This document shows positions 50,179-60,938 of a stretch of DNA of 60,938 bases, in pieces. The notes under the pieces were generated by a model, which worked only from the letters and a program-made list of their open reading frames with translations, was not told the origin of the DNA and made no database searches. The position numbers and the translations under genes are program-made. The number at the start of each line of letters is the position of its first letter. Position 1 is the stretch's first letter. This DNA is from an uncultured Bacteroidia bacterium (GTDB lineage Bacteria; Bacteroidota; Bacteroidia; Bacteroidales; UBA932), in the NCBI GenBank assembly GCA_902780935.1, contig CACZHP010000020.1:1-60938 (forward strand). The letters run 5' to 3'.

Positions 50179-51243
50179 ATGTCGGCTAAATCTTTTATGA
50201 GCGATTTCGACAAATACATCAAACAAGGGGAACCAGGGCAGGCTGAGAAGGCCCGTATCTGGCAGACCGCTATCGGCCTGCAAGATGTGGACGGACTCAA
50301 AACCTCGGAGTACCTGAAGGAAACCGCGCAAAGACACATCGAAGGGGATATTTCCATTGAGGATGTCCGTAACTTGTTAGACAGTTACTATGAGTCCAAG
50401 ACCAAGCGTGAGCGGGTGGAAGAAAGGACCGAGGAAGCGGACAAGGTCTCGGCGGCGATTACGTCCATCCTGTCAGAGAACACATTTACTTTTTCTCCGG
50501 ACTACTTCATCAGTATCCATCGGCGGCTTTTCACCGGCATCTACCCATTTGCAGGACAAGTCCGCGATTACAATATCAGCAAGAAAGAATGGGTGTTGGA
50601 CGGCGCTTCGGTACTCTATTCAGACTCCTACATGATTCGCCAGACACTGGAATATGACTTTGCCCAGGAGCGAGCCTTTTCATATGTTGGCTTAAGTCCG
50701 GCAGACGCCGTGAAACATATTGCCGGTTTCATTTCAGGGATCTGGCAGATTCATGCTTTCGGCGAGGGCAATACCCGGACAACCGCTGTCTTTGCTATCA
50801 AGTATCTGCGAAGTTTTGGCTTCGACATCGATAATGACCTCTTCGAAAAACACTCCTGGTACTTCCGCAACGCTCTTGTGCGGGCGAACTATCATAATCT
50901 TTCCAAGGGAATTACGGCCACGGACCAGTATCTGGTGCGTTTCTTCCGAAACCTGATTTTGGGAGAGGAAAGCACTCTTTCCAATCGGGAAATGCACGTG
51001 TCCGTCCAAAGTATCACCCCGGATGTTTCAAAGTCTCAATTTGATACTTTGAATTGCTCTTTGGAAGAATTGGCCGTCCTCAAAGCTGTCGGAGAGAACC
51101 CCTACATCACGCAAGAGGCCTTGAAGAAGACTATCGGAAAGTCCATCTCCACGGTAAAAAGACTCACCATCAACCTTCAGAAGAAAGGCCTCCTTGTACG
51201 CAAAAATGGCAAACGTGACGGCTACTGGGAGGTTCTGGCTTAA
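50179..51243 (+). CDS. Fic-domain protein with C-terminal winged helix
   Basis: A 354-residue Fic protein; such enzymes usually transfer AMP to target proteins. The Fic core motif is HAFGEGNTRT (residues 192-201), a variant of HPFxxGNGR, with the upstream flap region IYPFAGQVRDYNISKKEWVL (121-140). The N-terminal helices (GLQDVDGLKTSEYLKETAQR, HIEGDISIEDVRNLLDSYY) may be an internal inhibitory helix as in VbhA-type antitoxins, although the strict [S/T]xxxE[G/N] pattern is not met. Residues 290-354 form a winged helix (ITQEALKKTIGKSISTVKRL), suggesting DNA binding and autoregulation. It may act in toxin-antitoxin or defence roles (inference). Confidence 0.82.
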   Translation: MSAKSFMSDFDKYIKQGEPGQAEKARIWQTAIGLQDVDGLKTSEYLKETAQRHIEGDISIEDVRNLLDSYYESKTKRERVEERTEEADKVSAAITSILSENTFTFSPDYFISIHRRLFTGIYPFAGQVRDYNISKKEWVLDGASVLYSDSYMIRQTLEYDFAQERAFSYVGLSPADAVKHIAGFISGIWQIHAFGEGNTRTTAVFAIKYLRSFGFDIDNDLFEKHSWYFRNALVRANYHNLSKGITATDQYLVRFFRNLILGEESTLSNREMHVSVQSITPDVSKSQFDTLNCSLEELAVLKAVGENPYITQEALKKTIGKSISTVKRLTINLQKKGLLVRKNGKRDGYWEVLA

Positions 51244-51867: not shown

Positions 51868-52401
51868 TTAAGAAATGGACTCGATGAACTGCTTATATTT
51901 CTTTAAACCTGCGGAATACATCGAATGACCGATCACATCAAAGTCGCTGGCGGAAACTTTTTCGATAATATTCTCAAGAACACGAAGGTCTGTGACACGA
52001 TACATATTCGAAGTCGAGCCTGTCACGGATTTAATAATCGCCTGAACCGAAGGACAATTGGGAGTGTCGATGCTGTATTTCCTGATTGTTCGCTCGGAAA
52101 GAAGTCTCTCTTTCATATAACGCGCAAAGCTCTGCTCAAGAGTTAAGGCAGGAATAGTGGATATAGCCTGCGCCGGAGCTTCCTTTACCGCTTCCACAAG
52201 TGAGAAAAAGGAACTTAAAGAGAGATTGAAAAAAGAAGCCATGCGCTCGACAACCTCAACGCTGACATTCCTTTGGCCGCTCTCGATATTGCTGAGATAA
52301 TGCTGGTCAATGCCGCACTGGGAGCTAAGTTGCTCTTGTGAAAGATGGCGCTCCTGCCTAAGCCTTTTAACAACCTGACCTATCTTTTCTTGTGTGTTCA
52401 T
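51868..52401 (-). CDS. XRE-family regulator divergent from hsdM
   Basis: A 177-residue regulator. Residues 5-62 form a Cro/C1-type HTH (KIGQVVKRLRQERHLSQEQL, SSQCGIDQHYLSNIESGQRN). The C-terminal half (NCPSVQAIIKSVTGSTSNMY, DFDVIGHSMYSAGLKKYKQF) is not a family I can name. Divergence from the type I system and a palindrome at 52611-52636 suggest that it controls hsdM expression, like restriction-system C proteins. That role is inferred. A possible -7 (TATTTTTA, minus strand, 52420-52427) lies 19 bases before its start. Confidence 0.82.
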   Translation of the reverse strand: MNTQEKIGQVVKRLRQERHLSQEQLSSQCGIDQHYLSNIESGQRNVSVEVVERMASFFNLSLSSFFSLVEAVKEAPAQAISTIPALTLEQSFARYMKERLLSERTIRKYSIDTPNCPSVQAIIKSVTGSTSNMYRVTDLRVLENIIEKVSASDFDVIGHSMYSAGLKKYKQFIESIS

Positions 52402-52685: not shown

Positions 52686-54089
52686 ATGGCTAAAACCAAC
52701 ACGGCCGACGTGGGATTTGAGAAACAAATCTGGTCGGCAGCTGACAAGTTAAGGGGTAGTATGGATGCCTCTGAGTATAAGCATGTGGTACTTGGACTTA
52801 TTTTCCTCAAGTACATTTCAGACAGATTCGAGCAGCGTTACCAGGAGTTGGTAGCCGAGGGTTACGGAATGGAGGAAGATAAAGATGAGTACACAAGCCA
52901 GGGAATATTCTGGGTCCCGCAAGATGCACGTTGGGAAGCGATAGCATCCAATGCACATACTCCGGAAGTAGGCATCAAGATTGATGAGGCCATGCGTCTT
53001 ATCGAGAAAGAGAACAACCGCTTGAAGGGTATCCTTCCCAAGAACTTCGCCCGACCGGAAATGGATAAACAGCGTCTTGGTGATGTTGTTGATCTGTTCA
53101 CAAACATCAACATGAAAGAGCATGGTGACAGCAAGGATATTCTTGGCAGGACATACGAGTATTGCCTATCGATGTTCGCATCTTCCGAAGGCAAGAATGC
53201 TGGAGAATTCTATACTCCTGCTTGCATTGTCCGCACTCTCGTTGAAGTGCTCAAGCCGTATCATGGCCGTGTATTTGACCCGGCTTGTGGGTCCGGTGGA
53301 ATGTTCGTGCAGTCAGCTAAATTCATAGAGCGCCATCAGGGGCGCATCAATGACATTTCCGTATTCGGCCAGGAAAGCAATCCTACAACGTGGAAGATGG
53401 CCCAGATGAATTTGGCTATCCGTGGGATTGAGGCTAATCTTGGAGAAGCCAATGCAGATTCCTTCCTTAAAGATCAGCATGCCACTCTCAAGGCCGACTT
53501 TGTCATGGCGAATCCTCCTTTCAATATGAGTGATTGGGGTGCAGACAAACTTCAGGACGATGTCCGCTGGAAATACGGCATCCCTCCGGCAGGAAATGCC
53601 AACTTCGCCTGGCTTCAGCACATGATACACCACCTCTCCCCTGTCGGAAAGATCGGTATGGTGTTGGCCAACGGATCTCTTTCTTCCCAAAGCGGAGGAG
53701 AAGGAACCATACGCGAAAATATCCTTAAAGCAGATCTCGTTGAATGTATCGTAGCCCTCCCGAGTCAGCTTTTCTATTCCACCGGTATTCCTGTATCTCT
53801 TTGGTTCCTGAATAGGGCAAAGAAACAGCCTGGCAAGACACTCTTTATTGACGCTCGCAACTTGGGGACGATGGTCACACGCAGGCTTCGCGAACTCACT
53901 GAGGAGGACATCATGAAGATTGCAGGGACATACGATAAGTACGTCTCTGGAGAACTGGAGGACGAGAAAGGATTCTGCGCCGTGGCAACTTTGGAAGACA
54001 TCGCCAAGCAAGACTACATACTGACTCCCGGCCGGTATGTTGGGATCGCCGAAACAGAGGATGACGGCGAGCCACGGCGAGCCCTTTGA
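52686..54089 (+). CDS. hsdM: Type I restriction-modification methyltransferase subunit HsdM, C-terminally frameshifted
   Basis: A 467-residue HsdM that adds methyl groups to adenine with HsdS supplying specificity. The N-terminal helical domain ([20 protein letters not shown]) precedes the SAM-binding motif [11 protein letters not shown] (197-207) and the catalytic NPPF (276-279). After [15 protein letters not shown] the frame is broken by a 10-bp tandem duplication and stops at 54089. Skipping one copy restores the normal family end: [39 protein letters not shown], stop at 54199-54201. The lost ~37 residues form the C-terminal helix that normally packs against HsdS, so activity may be reduced or off in this state. 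Confidence 0.93.
54064..54083 (+). repeat. 10-bp tandem duplication in hsdM
   Basis: ACGGCGAGCC occurs twice in perfect tandem (54064-54073, 54074-54083). Ten bases is not a multiple of three, so it shifts the frame. One copy would leave hsdM intact to 54201. Confidence 0.95.
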
Positions 54090-54210
54090 GGAGAAGATGG
54101 CCAGGCTCACCGGCGAGCTCTCCGAAATGTTCAAAGAGTCCCATCGGCTGGAAGAAGAAATCCGTAAGCAACTGGCCTCTATCGGCTTTGAACTAAAATA
54201 GGAGATCTTT

Positions 54211-54253
54211 TCCTTACTGCTCGATTATCAATTGTTTAACGAATCAGTAAGGA
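54211..54253 (+). promoter_or_regulatory. Hairpin covering the recombinase ribosome-binding region
   Basis: TCCTTACTG (54211-54219) pairs perfectly with CAGTAAGGA (54245-54253) over a 25-nt loop. The right arm contains AAGGA and ends one base before the recombinase ATG. Folding in the mRNA could limit translation of the recombinase. It is not followed by a T-run. Confidence 0.55.
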
Positions 54254-54254
54254 T

Positions 54255-55247
54255 ATGAAAGAAGCATTTATCACCCAGATTACAGAGGCAATGTCCGGAA
54301 CATTGACAGTAGATCAGATGACACAGCTCAGCAGCGTCTTATTGCAGACGCTGAGCAGCTACACGCTCATCGATGAAGGTGGCAAGGTCCAGGAAGATAT
54401 TGTCACCAACAACCGTCTACTTGAGATATTCCTTTCCGCCAAACTCGTTGAAGGTTGCTCCGCGAAGACGATCAAGTATTACGAGACAACCATCAAGCAG
54501 TTGTTCCGGTACATGCCTAAGGCTGTTAAGGATTATACGACAGATGACCTCCGGGCATATTTGGCGGTATTCCAGAAGAAGCACAAATCAAGCAAAGTCA
54601 CTATCGACAACATTCGCAGGATCTTTTCTTCCTTCTTCTCATGGCTGGAGGACGAGGATTTCATATTGAAGAGCCCCGTCCGTAGAATTCACAAAGTGAA
54701 AACCGGAGAGCAGGTGAAGGAAACCATCTCGGACGAGAACATGGAGATTCTCCGGGACAACTGCAAGAACATCCGGGATTTGGCCATGATTGATTTGCTC
54801 TCATCCACAGGAATGCGTGTCGGGGAGCTGGTGAAGCTAAATCGCTCTGATGTGAACTTCAATGAACGTGAATGTATCGTTTTCGGAAAAGGAAACAAGG
54901 AAAGAATCGTGTATTTCAATGCCCGAACGAAAATTCATCTGCAGCAATATCTCAAATCCCGAAAGGATAAGAATCCGGCTCTCTTCGTTTCGCTAAACAA
55001 GCCGCACGAGAGACTCCAGATTTCGGGCGTTGAAGTTCGACTCCGTCAACTTGGTCGTGGACTGAAGATACCCAGGATCCATCCTCATAAGTTCCGTAGG
55101 ACGCTCGCCACAATGGCCATCGATAAAGGGATGCCAGTGGAACAAGTCCAGAAGCTTCTTGGTCATGTGAAGATTGATACCACCATGCGTTACGCTATGG
55201 TGAATCAGACGAATGTCAAACTCTCTCATCGTAAGTTTATAGCCTGA
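54255..55247 (+). CDS. Tyrosine recombinase of the hsdS array
   Basis: A 330-residue XerD-like site-specific recombinase. It has an N-terminal SAM-like core-binding domain (NNRLLEIFLSAKLVEGCSAK through IRRIFSSFFSWLEDE) and the catalytic residues Arg188 (TGMRVGEL), Lys212 (GKGNKER), His278/Arg281 (HPHKFRRT), His304 (LLGH) and Tyr313 (TTMRYAMV), so it should be active. Recombinases next to hsdS genes in many bacteria shuffle recognition domains. Its place between hsdM and the hsdS pieces and the palindromic cores in those pieces point to that job. The stop overlaps the next frame (TGATG). Confidence 0.93.
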   Translation: MKEAFITQITEAMSGTLTVDQMTQLSSVLLQTLSSYTLIDEGGKVQEDIVTNNRLLEIFLSAKLVEGCSAKTIKYYETTIKQLFRYMPKAVKDYTTDDLRAYLAVFQKKHKSSKVTIDNIRRIFSSFFSWLEDEDFILKSPVRRIHKVKTGEQVKETISDENMEILRDNCKNIRDLAMIDLLSSTGMRVGELVKLNRSDVNFNERECIVFGKGNKERIVYFNARTKIHLQQYLKSRKDKNPALFVSLNKPHERLQISGVEVRLRQLGRGLKIPRIHPHKFRRTLATMAIDKGMPVEQVQKLLGHVKIDTTMRYAMVNQTNVKLSHRKFIA

Positions 55248-55963
55248 TGTATGCCATGTCTACATATGGCCGTCGCAGGCTTCGTTCCTTGACCCCAAGA
55301 AGGCCAAGAAATCATAATTTAGAGGAGCAAGCACAGGCGCTGTATAAGTCTTGGTTTGTTGATTTTGAACCGTTTAAGGACGGCGAGTTTATTAATTCTG
55401 AACTTGGATCAATTCCCAAAGGATGGCATGTAGGAGTTCTTTCTGAAATTGCCACAATTACGATGGGTCAATCTCCATCTGGATCCTCATTCAACGAAGA
55501 TGGGAAGGGTATTCTTTTCTATCAGGGAAGGACTGAATTCGGGTTCCGTTTTCCAACGATTAGGCTATATACAACGGAACCCAGCCGCTTTTCGGAGCCC
55601 GGAAGCATCTTAATTAGTGTTCGCGCTCCTGTTGGCGATATTAATATTTCAAAGACCCGTTGTTGTATTGGCCGGGGTCTTGCAGCTATTAAGCCAAATA
55701 CAGAATCATACTCTTTCGCTCTCTACACAATAATGAACAACAAAGATGAACTGGATTTGTATAATGGAGAGGGGACTGTTTTTGGTTCAATTAATCGTAA
55801 AGAGCTCGAAGGACTACCCCTTCTTGTGCCTTCTTATGATGCCATAGAGTCCTTTAACGAAATCGTAGCTCCTATAGATAAGATGGTCGAGACGCTGAGC
55901 GACGAAGTTATCAATCTGCAAAATGAGCGTGATTCTCTTTTACCCTTTCTTATGGGCAAATAA
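55247..55963 (+). pseudogene. HsdS second-half fragment (TRD2 type)
   Basis: Homology to HsdS begins abruptly at base 55309 with NHNLEEQAQALYKSWFVDFE and continues through one target-recognition domain (INSELGSIPKGWHVGVLSEI, SPSGSSFNEDGKGILFYQGR) to the C-terminal helix LLPFLMGK. The ~20 residues before the break (MYAMSTYGRRRLRSLTPRRP) are unrelated, so it is a half-gene opened at its central site. The frame could be translated through coupling with the recombinase stop. Half-HsdS proteins can dimerise in some systems, so function cannot be excluded. Confidence 0.85.
55306..55322 (+). repeat. hsdS central core site 1 (left array edge)
   Basis: The sequence here matches 15 of 17 bases of the central site CATAAATCATAATTTAG; hsdS homology holds only to the right of AAATCATAATTT (55309-55320). 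AAAT and ATTT are inverted arms around CATA, like a tyrosine recombinase core. Confidence 0.7.
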
Positions 55964-55967
55964 CCTG

Positions 55968-55984
55968 CTAAATTCTCATTTATG
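55968..55984 (+). repeat. hsdS start-site repeat 1
   Basis: CTAAATTCTCATTTATG directly after the stop of the TRD2 fragment, its ATG being the start of the small membrane protein gene. Same 17-mer at 57403-57419 and, with a final C, at 58631-58647. Confidence 0.75.
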
Positions 55985-56212
55985 GAAATGCTTAATATTA
56001 TTCTTTCTGCTATTGCGGCGTGCGCCTCGGTTATATCTGTTATTCTGATGTTAAAAAGTAATCGAGAGAATAAACAGCATCAACGTCATCGTCTAGAGTC
56101 GTTAGACGAAGAGTACAATGGGCCTTTAGGGCATTATGTTGATCCAACAGGAAGAGATATAGTTCGAGTGGAAATGAAGACCTTGAAGAAAGATTTGAAG
56201 ATTAAGAACTAA
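55982..56212 (+). CDS. Small single-span membrane protein inside the hsdS array
   Basis: A 76-residue protein with one N-terminal transmembrane helix (MLNIILSAIAACASVISVIL) and a charged tail (RENKQHQRHRLESLDEEYNG, GRDIVRVEMKTLKKDLKIKN). No family recognised. It starts in the start-site repeat that elsewhere carries an hsdS start codon, and hsdS copy 1 begins 6 bases after its stop. It therefore looks inserted between a start site and an hsdS gene, or carried as cargo of the cassette. Confidence 0.6.
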   Translation: MEMLNIILSAIAACASVISVILMLKSNRENKQHQRHRLESLDEEYNGPLGHYVDPTGRDIVRVEMKTLKKDLKIKN

Positions 56213-56218
56213 CTCCTT

Positions 56219-57406
56219 ATGATTGAGTGGAAATCCTATAAGCTTGGCGATTTAGCACAGATTAAGGGAGGCAAGCGCCTTCCCAAAGGTGCCACCTTAT
56301 CTTCTGTTGCGAATTCGCATCCATATATAAGGATTCGGGACCTTGGGTCCACAAGAATACTTGAGCTAAATAAGACATATGAATATGTAGATGACTATAC
56401 ACAGAAAGCAATTTCACGGTACATTGTTAACCGCGGTGACATTCTACTATCCATTGTAGGGACCATCGGTTTAACTGGTATTGTAGGGGATAGTTTAGAC
56501 AATGCAAATCTTACGGAGAATTGTGTTAAAATAGTTGGCCTTCAAGGACTGAACCCAATGTTTCTTTATTATTTTCTCATGTCGAAGACTGGACAGAAAG
56601 AAATTCAAAAAGGTATTGTCGGTGCAGTCCAACCCAAACTACCAATCAAAAACATCCAAGACATAACAATAACTCTTCCTTCGCTTATAGAGCAAGAGAG
56701 AATAGCTGAAATTCTATCATCATTTGACGACAAGATTGAACTCAACAATCGCATAAATCATAATTTAGAGGAACTAGTTCAATATCGTTTTGACCAATTG
56801 TTGTTAGCTAATGATGCCAAGGGTTATTGTCAAGTTGCTGACTATATTGACATTAATCCTAAACGCGAGCTCAAAAAAGGGCAATTTGCCAGATCAATAG
56901 AAATGAGCTTTCTTTCCACATCAGGTTCTTTTCCCTCCGGGTGGGATTTCAAGGAGTACAACGGTGGGATGAAGTTTGTGAACGGCGATACGATTATGGC
57001 TCGAATTACTCCCTGTCTTGAGAATGGGAAAGTGGCGTACGTTGATTTCCTTGACGAGAAAGAGACTGCTTTTGGCTCTACGGAATATATTGTACTTCGA
57101 TCAAAACCTGGAATTCCCTCGGCGTTCACATACTTTTTGGCCCGTAATAATGATTTCGTTGACTATGCTACAAAGAATATGAATGGAAGTAGTGGCCGCC
57201 AACGAGTCTCTGGGGATGTGATAGGGCGTTATAGTATTCCCATCCTTAATGATCAAGACCTATCTCTCTTTGCAGAGGTATCGAAGGCTGCAATGAATGT
57301 CATTAGGATTAATAGCATTGAAAATATAAAGCTTGCATCAACCAGAGACACATTGTTGCCGTTATTATTGTCGGGTGAGAATCCTTTTAATCATGTGACC
57401 TGCTAA
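56219..57406 (+). CDS. hsdS: HsdS specificity subunit, copy 1
   Basis: A 395-residue specificity protein with two target-recognition domains. TRD1 runs from WKSYKLGDLAQIKGGKRLPK to about residue 165; the central helix is LIEQERIAEILSSFDDKIEL, NNRINHNLEELVQYRFDQLL; TRD2 runs from DYIDINPKRELKKGQFARSI to about residue 360; and the C-terminal helix follows. The central core site is at 56752-56768. Unlike the other pieces, the residues after the core (LVQYRFDQLLLAND) differ from the EQAQALYKSWFVDF type, so TRD2 belongs to a different sequence class. The gene ends in a start-site repeat. Confidence 0.9.
   Translation: MIEWKSYKLGDLAQIKGGKRLPKGATLSSVANSHPYIRIRDLGSTRILELNKTYEYVDDYTQKAISRYIVNRGDILLSIVGTIGLTGIVGDSLDNANLTENCVKIVGLQGLNPMFLYYFLMSKTGQKEIQKGIVGAVQPKLPIKNIQDITITLPSLIEQERIAEILSSFDDKIELNNRINHNLEELVQYRFDQLLLANDAKGYCQVADYIDINPKRELKKGQFARSIEMSFLSTSGSFPSGWDFKEYNGGMKFVNGDTIMARITPCLENGKVAYVDFLDEKETAFGSTEYIVLRSKPGIPSAFTYFLARNNDFVDYATKNMNGSSGRQRVSGDVIGRYSIPILNDQDLSLFAEVSKAAMNVIRINSIENIKLASTRDTLLPLLLSGENPFNHVTC
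56752..56768 (+). repeat. hsdS central core site 2
   Basis: CATAAATCATAATTTAG between the recognition domains of hsdS copy 1; identical to site 3. Confidence 0.8.
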
Positions 57407-57419
57407 ATTCTCATTTATG
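57403..57419 (+). repeat. hsdS start-site repeat 2
   Basis: CTAAATTCTCATTTATG spans the stop of hsdS copy 1 (TAA, 57404-57406) and the ATG of copy 2 (57417). Confidence 0.8.
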
Positions 57420-58634
57420 GAAGAGTGGAAATCATATAAATTATCCGAAGTGTCAAGTTTCAGAACAGGGAAACTTGATTCCAACGCTTCTTGCATAAAT
57501 GGGAAGTATCCTTTTTTTACTTGCTCTCCTGAGACTCTCCGTATAGACGAATTTGCTTTTGAGCAGAAAGCAGTTTTACTCGCAGGCAATAATGCCGAGG
57601 GCAATTTTTCGGTAAAATATTACGATGGGAAATTTAATGCATATCAACGGACATATGTTTTCACCGCAAAAGAGGCTCTTGTTGACCCATATTTCTTATA
57701 TTATGCGTTAAAAATCTGCTTGCACGATTTTAAGCAAATGTCCCAGGGAACATCAACAAAGTTCTTGACAGCTAAGATTTTGAACTCATTTGAGGTTCAA
57801 CTTCCTTCTCTTAAAGTCCAAAAACATATTGTTAACATCCTTAAGTCTATTGATGATAGAATTGAACTCAACAATCGCATAAATCATAATTTAGAGGAGC
57901 AGGCACGGGCTCTGTATAAGTCTTGGTTTGTTGATTTTGAACCGTTTAGAGATGGTAAATTCATCGATTCGGAATTTGGCTTAATCCCTGACGGATGGCA
58001 TATTGGGAATATCTCAGAAATGATTTCTGACACATATAATGGCGACTGGGGAAAAGAGGAATCCACAGGTGCATTTACAAAACGTGTGTTCTGTATTCGT
58101 GGTGCTGATATTCCTTCTATTCGTGTTGGGAGTTCCGGAAAAATGCCGACACGATTTATACAAGAGAAGCATTTCCTGTCTAAGTATCTGAAGAATGATG
58201 ATCTTGTTATAGAAATATCTGGAGGTTCTCCGACTCAGTCTACTGGGCGATTCTGTCGAATAACAAGTGATCTAATCGAGCGCTATGACCACTCTTTAAT
58301 CTGTACAAATTTCTGCAAAGCTATAAGGCCCATTGAAGGTTGTTCTTTATTCCTTTCATACCTCTGGAATGACCTATATGAAAAAGGGACAATGTTTTCA
58401 TATGAAAACGGGACTACAGGGATAAAGAATCTAGATTTGAGTGGCTTAATAATGGGAGAGCCTGTTATTATTCCGGATAAACGCTCAATGCAGTTATTCT
58501 CCTACGCAGTATCAGCTCTCAATAAACAGATCCTTTTCAATGGTCATGAGAATGAGAAACTCGGAGAACAAAGAGATTTGATGTTGCCGAAACTCATGTC
58601 TGGGGAGATGATTTCTAACAATGACGTTTGCTAA
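57417..58634 (+). CDS. hsdS: HsdS specificity subunit, copy 2
   Basis: A 405-residue two-domain specificity protein. TRD1 begins MEEWKSYKLSEVSSFRTGKL, the same opening pattern as copy 1. The central region VQKHIVNILKSIDDRIELNN, RINHNLEEQARALYKSWFVD is nearly identical in DNA to the left-edge fragment for about 67 bases from the core (57881). TRD2 runs from FRDGKFIDSEFGLIPDGWHI, and the C-terminal helix ends GEQRDLMLPKLMSGEM. Complete and probably functional if expressed. The start codon lies in the start-site repeat and the stop is in the next one. Confidence 0.92.
   Translation: MEEWKSYKLSEVSSFRTGKLDSNASCINGKYPFFTCSPETLRIDEFAFEQKAVLLAGNNAEGNFSVKYYDGKFNAYQRTYVFTAKEALVDPYFLYYALKICLHDFKQMSQGTSTKFLTAKILNSFEVQLPSLKVQKHIVNILKSIDDRIELNNRINHNLEEQARALYKSWFVDFEPFRDGKFIDSEFGLIPDGWHIGNISEMISDTYNGDWGKEESTGAFTKRVFCIRGADIPSIRVGSSGKMPTRFIQEKHFLSKYLKNDDLVIEISGGSPTQSTGRFCRITSDLIERYDHSLICTNFCKAIRPIEGCSLFLSYLWNDLYEKGTMFSYENGTTGIKNLDLSGLIMGEPVIIPDKRSMQLFSYAVSALNKQILFNGHENEKLGEQRDLMLPKLMSGEMISNNDVC
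57878..57894 (+). repeat. hsdS central core site 3
   Basis: CATAAATCATAATTTAG between the recognition domains of hsdS copy 2. Confidence 0.8.
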
Positions 58635-58647
58635 ATTCTCATTTATC
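58631..58647 (+). repeat. hsdS start-site repeat 3
   Basis: CTAAATTCTCATTTATC spans the stop of hsdS copy 2 (TAA, 58632-58634). The last base change removes the ATG, and the next hsdS starts 2 bases later at 58650. Confidence 0.75.
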
Positions 58648-58649
58648 GA

Positions 58650-59177
58650 ATGAAACTTATTGATGTTTGTGAATTAATTGTTGACTGTCCGCACTCAACT
58701 GCTAAAGACGAGGGCCATGGGATTCCATTGGTCCGAACTCCGAACATTGGTAAGGGACGGTTAGATTTATCTGGTGCTCATCGAGTAAGCGAGGTCGTTT
58801 ATAATCAGCGAATTGAGAGGGCTGTTCCCAAGGCCGGCGATTTAATTCTTGCGAGAGAGGCTCCGGTCGGAAATGTTGCATTGATAATGCCTGGGCAAAA
58901 GGTATGCCTAGGTCAAAGAGTAGTTCTCATTAGACCAGATAAAACAAAGGCAGATGCGGCATATCTGACATATTACCTTTTATCTGACGAAGTTCAGCAT
59001 CGTCTAAAAAACAATGCAAATGGGGCTGTAGTTGCTCATTTGAATATGAATGAGATTCGGAATCTTGTGATAGATTTACCGGAGATTTCTATCCAAAAAC
59101 GAATTGCTACTGTCCTTTCTTCACTTGACGACAAAATTGCCCTCAACAATCGCATAAATCATAATTTGGCAGCATAG
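58650..59177 (+). pseudogene. HsdS first-half fragment (TRD1 type)
   Basis: A 175-residue protein holding one target-recognition domain (DVCELIVDCPHSTAKDEGHG, GDLILAREAPVGNVALIMPG, NANGAVVAHLNMNEIRNLVI) and the central helix up to DDKIALNNRINHNL. It ends with AA and a stop just after the core AAATCATAATTT (59156-59167). It is the exact complement of the left-edge fragment: joining the two at the core would give one full hsdS. It may be translated as a half-subunit. Confidence 0.85.
59153..59169 (+). repeat. hsdS central core site 4 (right array edge)
   Basis: CATAAATCATAATTTGG, one base different from sites 2 and 3. hsdS homology holds only to the left of the end of AAATCATAATTT, the mirror image of site 1. 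Confidence 0.75.
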
Positions 59178-59225
59178 GCTAAAACCGAGCATGCACTATA
59201 ACATTGATAAACAAAACCTTATCAT

Positions 59226-60938
59226 ATGAGCATTTTTAACGAGGAAAGTTACGAGAACGCGGTTCTCTACCTGCTTGAGAATCTGGGCTATGAGCATATC
59301 TATGGCCCGGATGTTGAGCGGGATTACAGAGTGCCGTTCTATGAGGCGCAGCTTGCACATAGTCTCATGCTGGCGAATCCCAACAAACCAGCCGTAGCCA
59401 TCGAAGAAGCCATCCGCAGGGTACGGGACATTGACACCGGAACACTCGTCCAGAAGAATGAGAAGTTCATGGACTTTCTCCAGAACGGTGTAGAGGTGAC
59501 GTATGCCGTCAAGGGAGAAACCATCCACGACATCGTTTACCTCATTGATTTCCAGCATCCGGACAGGAATACCTTCCAAGCCATCAACCAGTGGACTTTC
59601 GTGGAGTATTCCGAGAAGCGGGCCGACATCATGATTTTTGTCAACGGACTCCCACTGGTGCTGGTTGAGCTCAAATCTCCGTCCCGCGAAGAGACCGATG
59701 CCTCGGCAGCATATCGGCAAATCCGGAATTACATCCAAGAAATCCCGTCCCTGTTCATCTATAACGTCTTCTGCGTAATGAGCGACATGACTCTCTCCAA
59801 GGCTGGTACCATCACCAGCAAGGAAGACCGCTTCATGGAATGGAAAACCAAGGACGGCCTTGAGGAGACGAAGGATTTCGTGGATTACGATACCTTCTTC
59901 GTGGGGATGTTCAAGCGTGACCGCTTCCTCGACCTCATCAAGAACTTTACCTGTTTCAGTGTGGATGAGGCTGGCTCAGCCAAGATTATGGCCGGGTACC
60001 ATCAATACTTCGCAGTCAAGAAGGCTGTTGACCGTACTGTCAGGGCTACAAACACCGATGGCAAGATTGGTGTATTCTGGCACACACAGGGAAGCGGGAA
60101 ATCCCTGTCTATGGTGTTCTATGCTCATCTGATTCAAACAGTCCTCAACAAGCCTACCATCGTTGTCATTACAGACCGCAACGACCTTGACGACCAGCTA
60201 TACACGCAGTTCTCCAAGTGTCAGAGCTTCCTGCGCCAAAAGCCCGTTCAGGCATCAAGTAGGGAGCATCTGAAAGAACTCCTGCTCGGCCGGGAAGCCA
60301 ATGGCATCATCTTCACCACCATGCAGAAATTCGAGGAATCGAATGAGCCGCTTTCCGAGCGCCGGAACATTGTGGTGATGACCGACGAGGCGCATCGAGG
60401 ACAGTACGGATTCGAAGAGAAAATCAATGCACATGGCAAAATCAGTGTGGGTATGGCCCGCATTATCCATGATTCACTGCCCAATGCATCGTTCATCGGT
60501 TTTACCGGAACTCCCATCTCGGACAAAGACCGCGATACACAGGAGGTCTTCGGTAATTACATCGATATCTACGATATGACGCAGGCCGTCAAGGACGGTG
60601 CTACCTGCCCAGTATTCTACGAGTCCCGCGTTGTGAATCTGAAACTCGATGACGCTACCATCCAGAAAATTGATGCCGAATACGAGAAACTCTCCGATGA
60701 GGGAGCCACAGCGCAGCAAATCGAGGAGAGCATGCACGAGATGTCCCATCTGGAGGAGATTCTCGGTGCTCCGGAAACCATCGACTCCCTGGTACGCGAT
60801 ATCCTCAAGCACTACGAGGAGAACAGGCAGTTTGAACTGACCGGAAAGGCCATGATCGTTGCCTTCTCTCGTCCTATTGCCATACGTATTTACAAGAGGA
60901 TCCTGGAGCTAAGACCCGATTGGACAGAGAAGGTCAAG
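59226..60938 (+). CDS. hsdR: Type I restriction endonuclease subunit HsdR (partial)
   Basis: The first 571 codons of HsdR, which translocates and cuts unmethylated DNA; the frame is open to the window edge. The N-terminal PD-(D/E)xK nuclease is visible (RADIMIFVNGLPLVLVELKS, with Asp134, Glu148 and Lys150). The helicase core has Walker A (HTQGSGKS, 286-293) and the DEAH box (TDEAHR, 386-391), followed by FIGFTGTPI. The start MSIFNEESYENAVLYLLENL is typical. It is the last visible gene of the hsdM-recombinase-hsdS-hsdR operon. Confidence 0.95.
   Translation, partial: MSIFNEESYENAVLYLLENLGYEHIYGPDVERDYRVPFYEAQLAHSLMLANPNKPAVAIEEAIRRVRDIDTGTLVQKNEKFMDFLQNGVEVTYAVKGETIHDIVYLIDFQHPDRNTFQAINQWTFVEYSEKRADIMIFVNGLPLVLVELKSPSREETDASAAYRQIRNYIQEIPSLFIYNVFCVMSDMTLSKAGTITSKEDRFMEWKTKDGLEETKDFVDYDTFFVGMFKRDRFLDLIKNFTCFSVDEAGSAKIMAGYHQYFAVKKAVDRTVRATNTDGKIGVFWHTQGSGKSLSMVFYAHLIQTVLNKPTIVVITDRNDLDDQLYTQFSKCQSFLRQKPVQASSREHLKELLLGREANGIIFTTMQKFEESNEPLSERRNIVVMTDEAHRGQYGFEEKINAHGKISVGMARIIHDSLPNASFIGFTGTPISDKDRDTQEVFGNYIDIYDMTQAVKDGATCPVFYESRVVNLKLDDATIQKIDAEYEKLSDEGATAQQIEESMHEMSHLEEILGAPETIDSLVRDILKHYEENRQFELTGKAMIVAFSRPIAIRIYKRILELRPDWTEKVK

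Follow-up and report, generated by a model that had tools for sequence, protein, structure and literature searches.

Probable excision and reinsertion of direct-repeat hsdS cassettes beside a tyrosine recombinase in a Bacteroidales type I restriction-modification locus

How could a type I restriction-modification locus change its specificity when its hsdS genes and half-genes stand in a row on one strand next to a tyrosine recombinase? We examined this question in a 60,938-nt stretch of DNA (here called the window) from an uncultured Bacteroidia bacterium of Bacteroidales UBA932 (CACZHP010000020.1, positions 1-60,938; source genome 3.05 Mb). Pfam and PADLOC identify hsdR, hsdM and hsdS together in the window, which makes this a type I system; hsdM, the recombinase, the hsdS pieces, a small open reading frame (ORF) and hsdR are all on the + strand, with the array lying between hsdM and hsdR (Table 1). 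A 12-bp core, AAATCATAATTT, is present in four exact copies, all on the + strand, and no exact inverted copy was found in the window. From this arrangement and that of related loci, we consider it very likely that cassettes are excised and reinserted at the direct cores by the adjacent, fixed recombinase, with reassortment of TRD1 and TRD2, the two target recognition domains of hsdS.

The initial annotation read the array as a TRD2 half, a small ORF, two full hsdS genes and a TRD1 half. It placed one and the same core where the left fragment gains hsdS homology (55309), where the right fragment loses it (59167), and between the recognition domains of both full genes. The ORFs and the Pfam Methylase_S matches agree with this order, and the core positions are exact. 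To the left of 55309 lies an open leader of 21 codons with non-hsdS sequence, and the right-hand frame stops two codons past 59167. Within hsdS, the cores sit in the codons for the inter-TRD linker (NHNL), and the array consists of three units, every one running TRD2-(small gene)-TRD1 from core to core. The shared sequence exceeds the 12-bp core: sites 2-4 are alike upstream and sites 1-3 are alike downstream, as expected if the outer sites adjoin fixed DNA. Allowing up to two mismatches on both strands, 19 matches to the core were counted in the window, vs. 4.1 expected (maximum of 9 in 100 shuffles). The extended core CAATCGCATAAATCATAATTT (up to three mismatches) has three matches in the 3.05-Mb genome, all in the array (it is unable to match site 1 because the left flank of that site differs), and no inverted copy in the whole genome.

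In the mechanism that we propose, the recombinase would stay in place and join any two direct cores in the hsdS linker; since the sites are direct, the DNA between them would be excised, not inverted, and would be freed as a circle able to reinsert at any core. The fixed frame would be leader-core-tail. The first unit would then give the leader-capped TRD2 half, the last unit the TRD1 half with its early stop, and each junction of neighbouring units one full hsdS, and an altered unit order would create other TRD1-TRD2 pairings. Three units would offer six possible TRD1-TRD2 pairs, two at once; two units would offer two, and one or none would leave no full gene.

The recombinase scored 246.7 bits with NF040815 (XerA-like, cut-off 220) and 66.5 bits with the integron-integrase model TIGR02249 (cut-off 265), so that it does not class as an integron integrase. 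The motifs R, K, HxxR, H and Y, which hold the catalytic residues of tyrosine recombinases, were located by eye. Relatives were collected by scanning one genome per species with the recombinase; the best 80 of 451 candidate stretches were kept, each with flanks of up to 10 kb, and the clades described here are therefore only sampled. Searches of the genus, order and family gave the same records by coordinates, plus two new loci (L154 and L155) and three weaker matches (61-63%); L156 was taken from viral contigs, and L138 and L139 are pieces of the same viral contig. Where recombinases are ∼69% identical or more, hsdM, recombinase, array and hsdR are in line and the recognised array cores are on one strand. 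Where they are ∼62-67% identical, cores are found in both orientations around the recombinase. A midpoint-rooted tree of 96 of the 100 recombinases (L161 and L168, which start beyond the locus, and the partial L171 and L172 were left out) has a 100/100 branch that splits 60 from 36 rows along this orientation line; the orientation labels were automatic, and 20 of the 96 rows were without a recognised core. In this direct clade the recombinase frame was open over its full length in 56/56 loci, with hsdM just upstream in 55, and the gene lies upstream of site 1 in all 40 loci in which a first core was found, including the window. The recombinase is fixed with respect to the units, and in the proposed mechanism it would be the agent of their movement.

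Excision and reinsertion predicts a single core orientation. Under one core definition, and with L090 additionally omitted (59 direct-clade and 36 sister-clade loci), at least two cores were present in 38 direct-clade loci, all 38 with every core on one strand, and in 21 sister-clade loci, all 21 with both orientations. L052 showed only + cores under a stricter pattern. No inverted core, as an inverting shufflon would need, was found within the direct-clade arrays with at least two cores; the one inverted match, in L048, is not in the array but 2.2 kb upstream of the recombinase gene. Interior cores read TAAAT-SATA-ATTTA. Counting only sites that bear one of the four centres found across the clade, the central four bases were identical inside the locus in 33/33 loci with at least two cores, and the complete 12-mers were identical in 32 of these. 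Could the array be a degenerate or frozen inversion shufflon, reduced to a static row of duplicates by the loss of its inverted copies? Of the four plasmid homologues that were opened, those of Lactococcus and Ligilactobacillus (Lactobacillales) have hsdS pieces on both strands; the Fusobacterium region was without annotation, and no hsd gene was listed near the Methanosphaera region. Together with the cores of the sister clade, these pieces indicate that inversion may be ancestral, and the first and last cores of L055 have altered outer bases, as a decaying array might. Inversion is plausibly the older state, the root being a midpoint root only. The uniform orientation and the identical 12-mers nevertheless speak against a frozen array, as do a leader frame preserved throughout and near-identical units in different slots (both described below), and we regard this explanation as very unlikely.

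The leader is a feature that the initial annotation did not describe. A first core was found in 40 of 45 loci, and its left flank was a leader, not hsdS, in all 40. By a uniform rule applied to 47 loci, the first ATG after the recombinase stop was open and in frame with the core in 43/43 loci that have a first core, with 38 distinct leader sequences. The leaders are 8 or 19-22 codons long, with 29% K/R/H. This frame, kept open in every case, suggests translation of the TRD2 half in fusion with the leader. At the other end, the frame stops within 10 codons past the last core in arrays that reach hsdR, except in L035, L036 and L083. Among the 29 arrays with both a first core and hsdR on the contig, a hand count by recognised cores gave 0 units in 2, 1 unit in 2, 2 units in 21, and 3 units in 4, one of which is the window. 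Empty arrays are a further prediction of excision and reinsertion. In Prevotella ihumii (L068) and P. micans (L061) a single core joins a leader on its left, which is that of their relatives, to the tail on its right, the expected product of recombination between a first and a last core; the hsdM, recombinase and hsdR frames are open in both. The further Methylase_S matches of these two genomes (L115, L118 and L120 for L068; L116 for L061) have no core in the hsdS linker, the core itself not having been searched genome-wide. The two one-unit arrays, with cores at 1054 and 2279 (L036) and at 1048 and 6174 (L089) from the recombinase start, contain no full hsdS, just a leader-TRD2 half and a TRD1-tail half. 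They may be either off states or working half-subunits.

Units have changed places between relatives. From hsdM to a point slightly beyond the first core, Phocaeicola faecium (L065) and Bacteroides sp. ET71 (L070) share 95.8% identity. A unit at 3594-5963 of L065 is found at 1059-3424 of L070 (99.6% identity over 2370 bp), in the second slot of the former and the first slot of the latter, and the shared block opens with the first base of a core and stops one base past a core. The other unit was also relocated (1059-3066 of L065 and 3412-5419 of L070, 99.1% identical), after which TRD1 diverges. These slots and their core-exact ends support the movement of circles by excision and reinsertion that was first read from the direct repeats of the window. 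L154 and Prevotella histicola (L067) share a TRD1 block of 633 bp (99.7%) that ends one base past the core, at the tail in one locus and within a full gene in the other. The last TRD1 of the window matches a TRD1 in a full gene of L040 (91% DNA identity over 363 bp, 96% for amino acids), and this match stops at the last base of the core. hsdS breakpoints at unrelated positions in relatives had been named in advance as evidence against the proposal; several breakpoints indeed fall on cores within a base, but others lie at a repeat near the gene start. A relative of the small ORF of unit 1 was also seen in another slot, between sites 2 and 3 of L034.

The gene-start repeat, which likewise goes beyond the initial annotation, is a second direct repeat, AAATTCTCATTT (the box), found three times in the window close to the start of the next ORF. 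The arrays of the 59 direct-clade loci hold 74 exact boxes (at least one in 40 loci), 74/74 on the + strand and 65/74 directly followed by ATG. No exact box was found in 450 kb upstream in the same loci or in 530 kb of the 36 sister-clade loci, and the long form of the box pattern had 0 matches in viral contigs. The other Methylase_S genes of the source genome lie on contigs C11, C44 and C56, in which no extended core and no extended box were found. Of the 19 direct-clade loci without an exact box, 9 are on contigs that end too early, 2 are the empty arrays, and 6 are Prevotella-type loci with TAAATTCCCATTTAT in its place; of the remaining two, L076 shows other near matches and L071 shows none. 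This breakdown strengthens, rather than weakens, the case for the box as a site. The box reads TAAAT-TCTC-ATTTA and shares its outer arms (TAAAT....ATTTA) with the interior cores, but its centre differs: TCTC is the usual form, and the Prevotella group has TCCC. The constancy of the core centre inside each locus, and likewise this group-wise form of the box centre, would be shown by a crossover region that is required to match between partners. The box is probably a second class of site, recombining with other boxes only, which would let the TRD1 and TRD2 modules separate as well. We infer this role, and the box might alternatively serve in translation start. Several homologous TRD2 stretches extend from the core start to 6-28 bp beyond the box, and L155 and L156 are alike up to 6 bp beyond a box and then different.

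Contig ends were considered as a sign of current activity. Among 55 loci inspected, the contig breaks off downstream in 31, and in 21 of these the break lies within the array. Six of the 21 contigs stop no more than 14 bp beyond a core or box, against 1.1 expected (P = 3e-4), and in two the stop falls exactly on the last base of a core. The excess is only suggestive because mixed arrangements would make the assembly branch after unique sequence but repeats in one array also break contigs. Switching may be going on in the present strain as well. The tendency of relatives' contigs to end at these sites would also be expected if the arrays were assembly artefacts, with repeats collapsed or chained from short reads. 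This is extremely unlikely, since the layout of leader, units and tail recurs on contigs of 1.3 to 5.2 Mb (L062, L065, L089, L154, and L155) and the TRD sequences differ within each array.

TRD partners were rarely kept between loci. For TRDs at least 75% identical between loci, the partner was retained across the core in 5/35 pairs and across the box in 4/32 pairs, pairs that are not independent of one another. Related TRDs are seen at the N as well as the C position, in clusters that are mixed at 50% identity. The similar reassortment across core and box, together with linker similarity that reaches ∼100 bp beyond the core, is in line with RecA-dependent recombination between conserved hsdS segments (domain movement), in which the recombinase would be incidental or decayed. 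In Helicobacter pylori, hsdS domain movement is said to take place without a dedicated recombinase locus. The outer sites, however, share only the core on one side, yet the high-identity blocks end within a base of it. The leader-core-tail frame recurs in the clade, both empty arrays join exactly at the core, and the recombinase frame is open in every direct-clade locus examined. We therefore consider RecA-dependent domain movement with an incidental or decayed recombinase unlikely.

Several observations nonetheless weigh against exchange from core to core by the fixed recombinase. Partner retention is as low across the box as across the core, and the core-to-core unit is for that reason not the sole moving piece; ordinary homologous recombination in the conserved linker and gene-start DNA could contribute. 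L065 and L070 must be separated by more than one event because TRD1 of the second relocated unit differs, and all the rearrangements seen compare species-level genomes. The altered outer bases of the first and last cores of L055 have been described above. The long tail frames of L035, L036 and L083 run 16, 28, and 47 codons from the core, the TRD2 half of L067 has an early stop, and L039 and L071 are without a recognisable first core and differ in the structure of the 5' array. A truncated recombinase match (69%, 83 residues) was found in genome G053. Finally, the contigs of L037 and L051 end exactly 55 bp after a core start, and 55 is a common assembly k-mer length.

The array units of relatives carry cargo genes of four types, with one representative of each identified by domain scan as Fic, Bro-N/Fic, YhcG nuclease, and RhuM. 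Cargo genes were seen in L038, L040-L043, L056, L059, L062-L067, L072, L073, L089, L154, and L155; L089 also has an ORF that resembles an IS66-type transposase. Doc, of the phd-doc pair carried on the pneumococcal tvr circle, has a Fic fold. A different arrangement was seen in L074, L076, L077, L081, L082 and L084, with recombinases of ∼70% identity. In 6/6 of these loci, a pair of cores spaced 63 or 66 bp from each other within one hsdS encloses an in-frame hydrophobic stretch of ∼18 residues. Where another, single core is present, L084 carries the insert in its first hsdS, and L074, L076, L077 and L081 carry it in a later one; in L082 only the insert-bearing hsdS is visible. Recombination could toggle which hsdS gene holds the hydrophobic insert in this group.

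The closest published system is the tvr (SpnIV) locus of Streptococcus pneumoniae. The locus was named by Croucher et al. (2014; PMC4263131), who proposed excision and re-integration, and excision-reintegration with circular intermediates was demonstrated there by PCR (Kwun et al., 2018; PMC6265443). The initial annotation called such switching unusual. It has rarely been described, but it is not new in kind, given that tvr does likewise. As in the window, the hsd genes and repeats of tvr are on one strand from hsdM to hsdR, with a tyrosine recombinase in the locus and both half and full hsdS genes. tvr also has two types of direct repeat sharing a core, at the hsdS midpoint and at the gene end (PMC6265443); here the core and the candidate box share outer arms, a likeness by description. 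In tvr the recombinase and phd-doc are part of the circle, being placed between the TRD segments (PMC6265443), whereas here the recombinase is fixed upstream of site 1, the units contain only TRD2-(cargo)-TRD1, and there are a coding leader, a tail and 0-3 units. The mechanism thus has a precedent in tvr, and what is new is the taxon, the recombinase outside the units, the leader and tail half-genes, the arrays of 0-3 units, the cargo, and a sister clade that seems to invert.

Reports on the hsdS shufflon of B. fragilis (PMC3090145) and on P. intermedia (PMC5608340) describe inversions. With inverting loci such as SpnIII/ivr and the B. fragilis shufflon, our array shares a tyrosine recombinase beside hsdS and sites midway between TRDs, and the sister clade, with cores both ways, looks like these loci; unlike them, the direct-clade arrays are without an inverted core. 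The related TRDs at both N and C positions resemble hsdS domain movement in H. pylori (PMC3077401). A REBASE survey of phase-variable type I systems (PMC7394358) sought inverted repeats, and neither "direct repeat" nor "excision" occurs in its main text; direct arrays would escape such a survey because inverted repeats were its search target. No direct-repeat hsdS array in Bacteroidales was reported in the open-access titles and abstract beginnings among the matches listed, subscription journals being mostly outside that set. Integrons serve as a working analogy: a fixed recombinase by a fixed site, and cassettes between direct sites in variable number including none. Unlike in integrons, the sites here are inside coding sequence, the cassettes are circularly permuted hsdS, and the recombinase is far below the integrase cut-off.

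A broader picture can be drawn tentatively, and we put its chance at somewhat short of even. In it, Bacteroidales would have a half-gene cassette system of integron-like logic, in which a recombinase, a coding leader site and a tail, all fixed, frame an open-ended row of circular TRD2-cargo-TRD1 cassettes. Exchange would use two classes of site that have the same arms but differ in their centres, and cassettes could be acquired from outside along with accessory genes (Fic, YhcG, RhuM). The system would derive from an inverting hsdS recombinase, with a third offshoot (L074-L084) toggling the hydrophobic insert. If cassettes do move in the way proposed, many Bacteroidales could thereby alter their restriction and methylation specificity, or lose it; among the record titles of relatives are metagenomes from rumen and gut as well as named strains of Bacteroides, Phocaeicola, Prevotella and Dysgonomonas. 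It would then be possible to compare inverting and excising forms within one recombinase family, and the choice of TRD could be read from cassette order. If confirmed, the two site classes with shared arms would be usable as orthogonal recombination sites.

Table 1. Features of the hsd locus in the window (positions 52,686-60,938)
Feature	Position	Strand	Evidence
hsdM, type I methyltransferase subunit	52686..54089	+	Pfam N6_Mtase 5e-109, HsdM_N 4e-30; PADLOC MTase_I
Tyrosine recombinase, outside the units	54255..55247	+	Pfam Phage_integrase 2e-35; NCBIfam recomb_XerA_Arch above cut-off
Fixed leader, 21 codons, in frame with core 1	55247..55308	+	ATG overlaps recombinase stop
Leader + TRD2 half-hsdS ORF	55247..55963	+	Pfam Methylase_S 1e-6
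Core site 1, leader side	55309..55320	+	Exact match
Unit 1, 1446 bp core to core: TRD2 half, box, small ORF, TRD1 of first full hsdS	55309..56754	+	Core positions
Box 1 (AAATTCTCATTT), candidate second site class	55970..55981	+	Exact match
Small ORF, 76 aa, unit 1 cargo, hydrophobic N-terminus by eye	55982..56212	+	Without Pfam match
First full hsdS, TRD1 of unit 1 + TRD2 of unit 2	56219..57406	+	Pfam Methylase_S 4e-31; PADLOC Specificity_I
Core site 2	56755..56766	+	Exact match
Unit 2, 1126 bp	56755..57880	+	Core positions
Box 2	57405..57416	+	Exact match
Second full hsdS, TRD1 of unit 2 + TRD2 of unit 3	57417..58634	+	Pfam Methylase_S 3e-26; PADLOC Specificity_I
Core site 3	57881..57892	+	Exact match
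Unit 3, 1275 bp	57881..59155	+	Core positions
Box 3	58633..58644	+	Exact match
TRD1 half-hsdS, closed by fixed tail	58650..59177	+	Pfam Methylase_S 2e-17
Core site 4, tail side	59156..59167	+	Exact match
Fixed tail: two further codons then stop, then hsdR	59168..59225	+	ORF reading
hsdR, runs off the window	59226..60938	+	Pfam HSDR_N 7e-40, SWI2_SNF2 3e-78

Three further features lie in or close to the locus. An ORF of 54 codons at 54037-54201 overlaps the end of hsdM before the recombinase and is without a family match. A helix-turn-helix protein of 177 aa (51868-52401, - strand) is encoded divergently from hsdM and is a possible regulator of the locus. Upstream of hsdM, a Fic-domain gene (50179-51243) has the candidate PDC-S72 as its best PADLOC match (3e-133) and resembles the Fic cargo genes of relatives.

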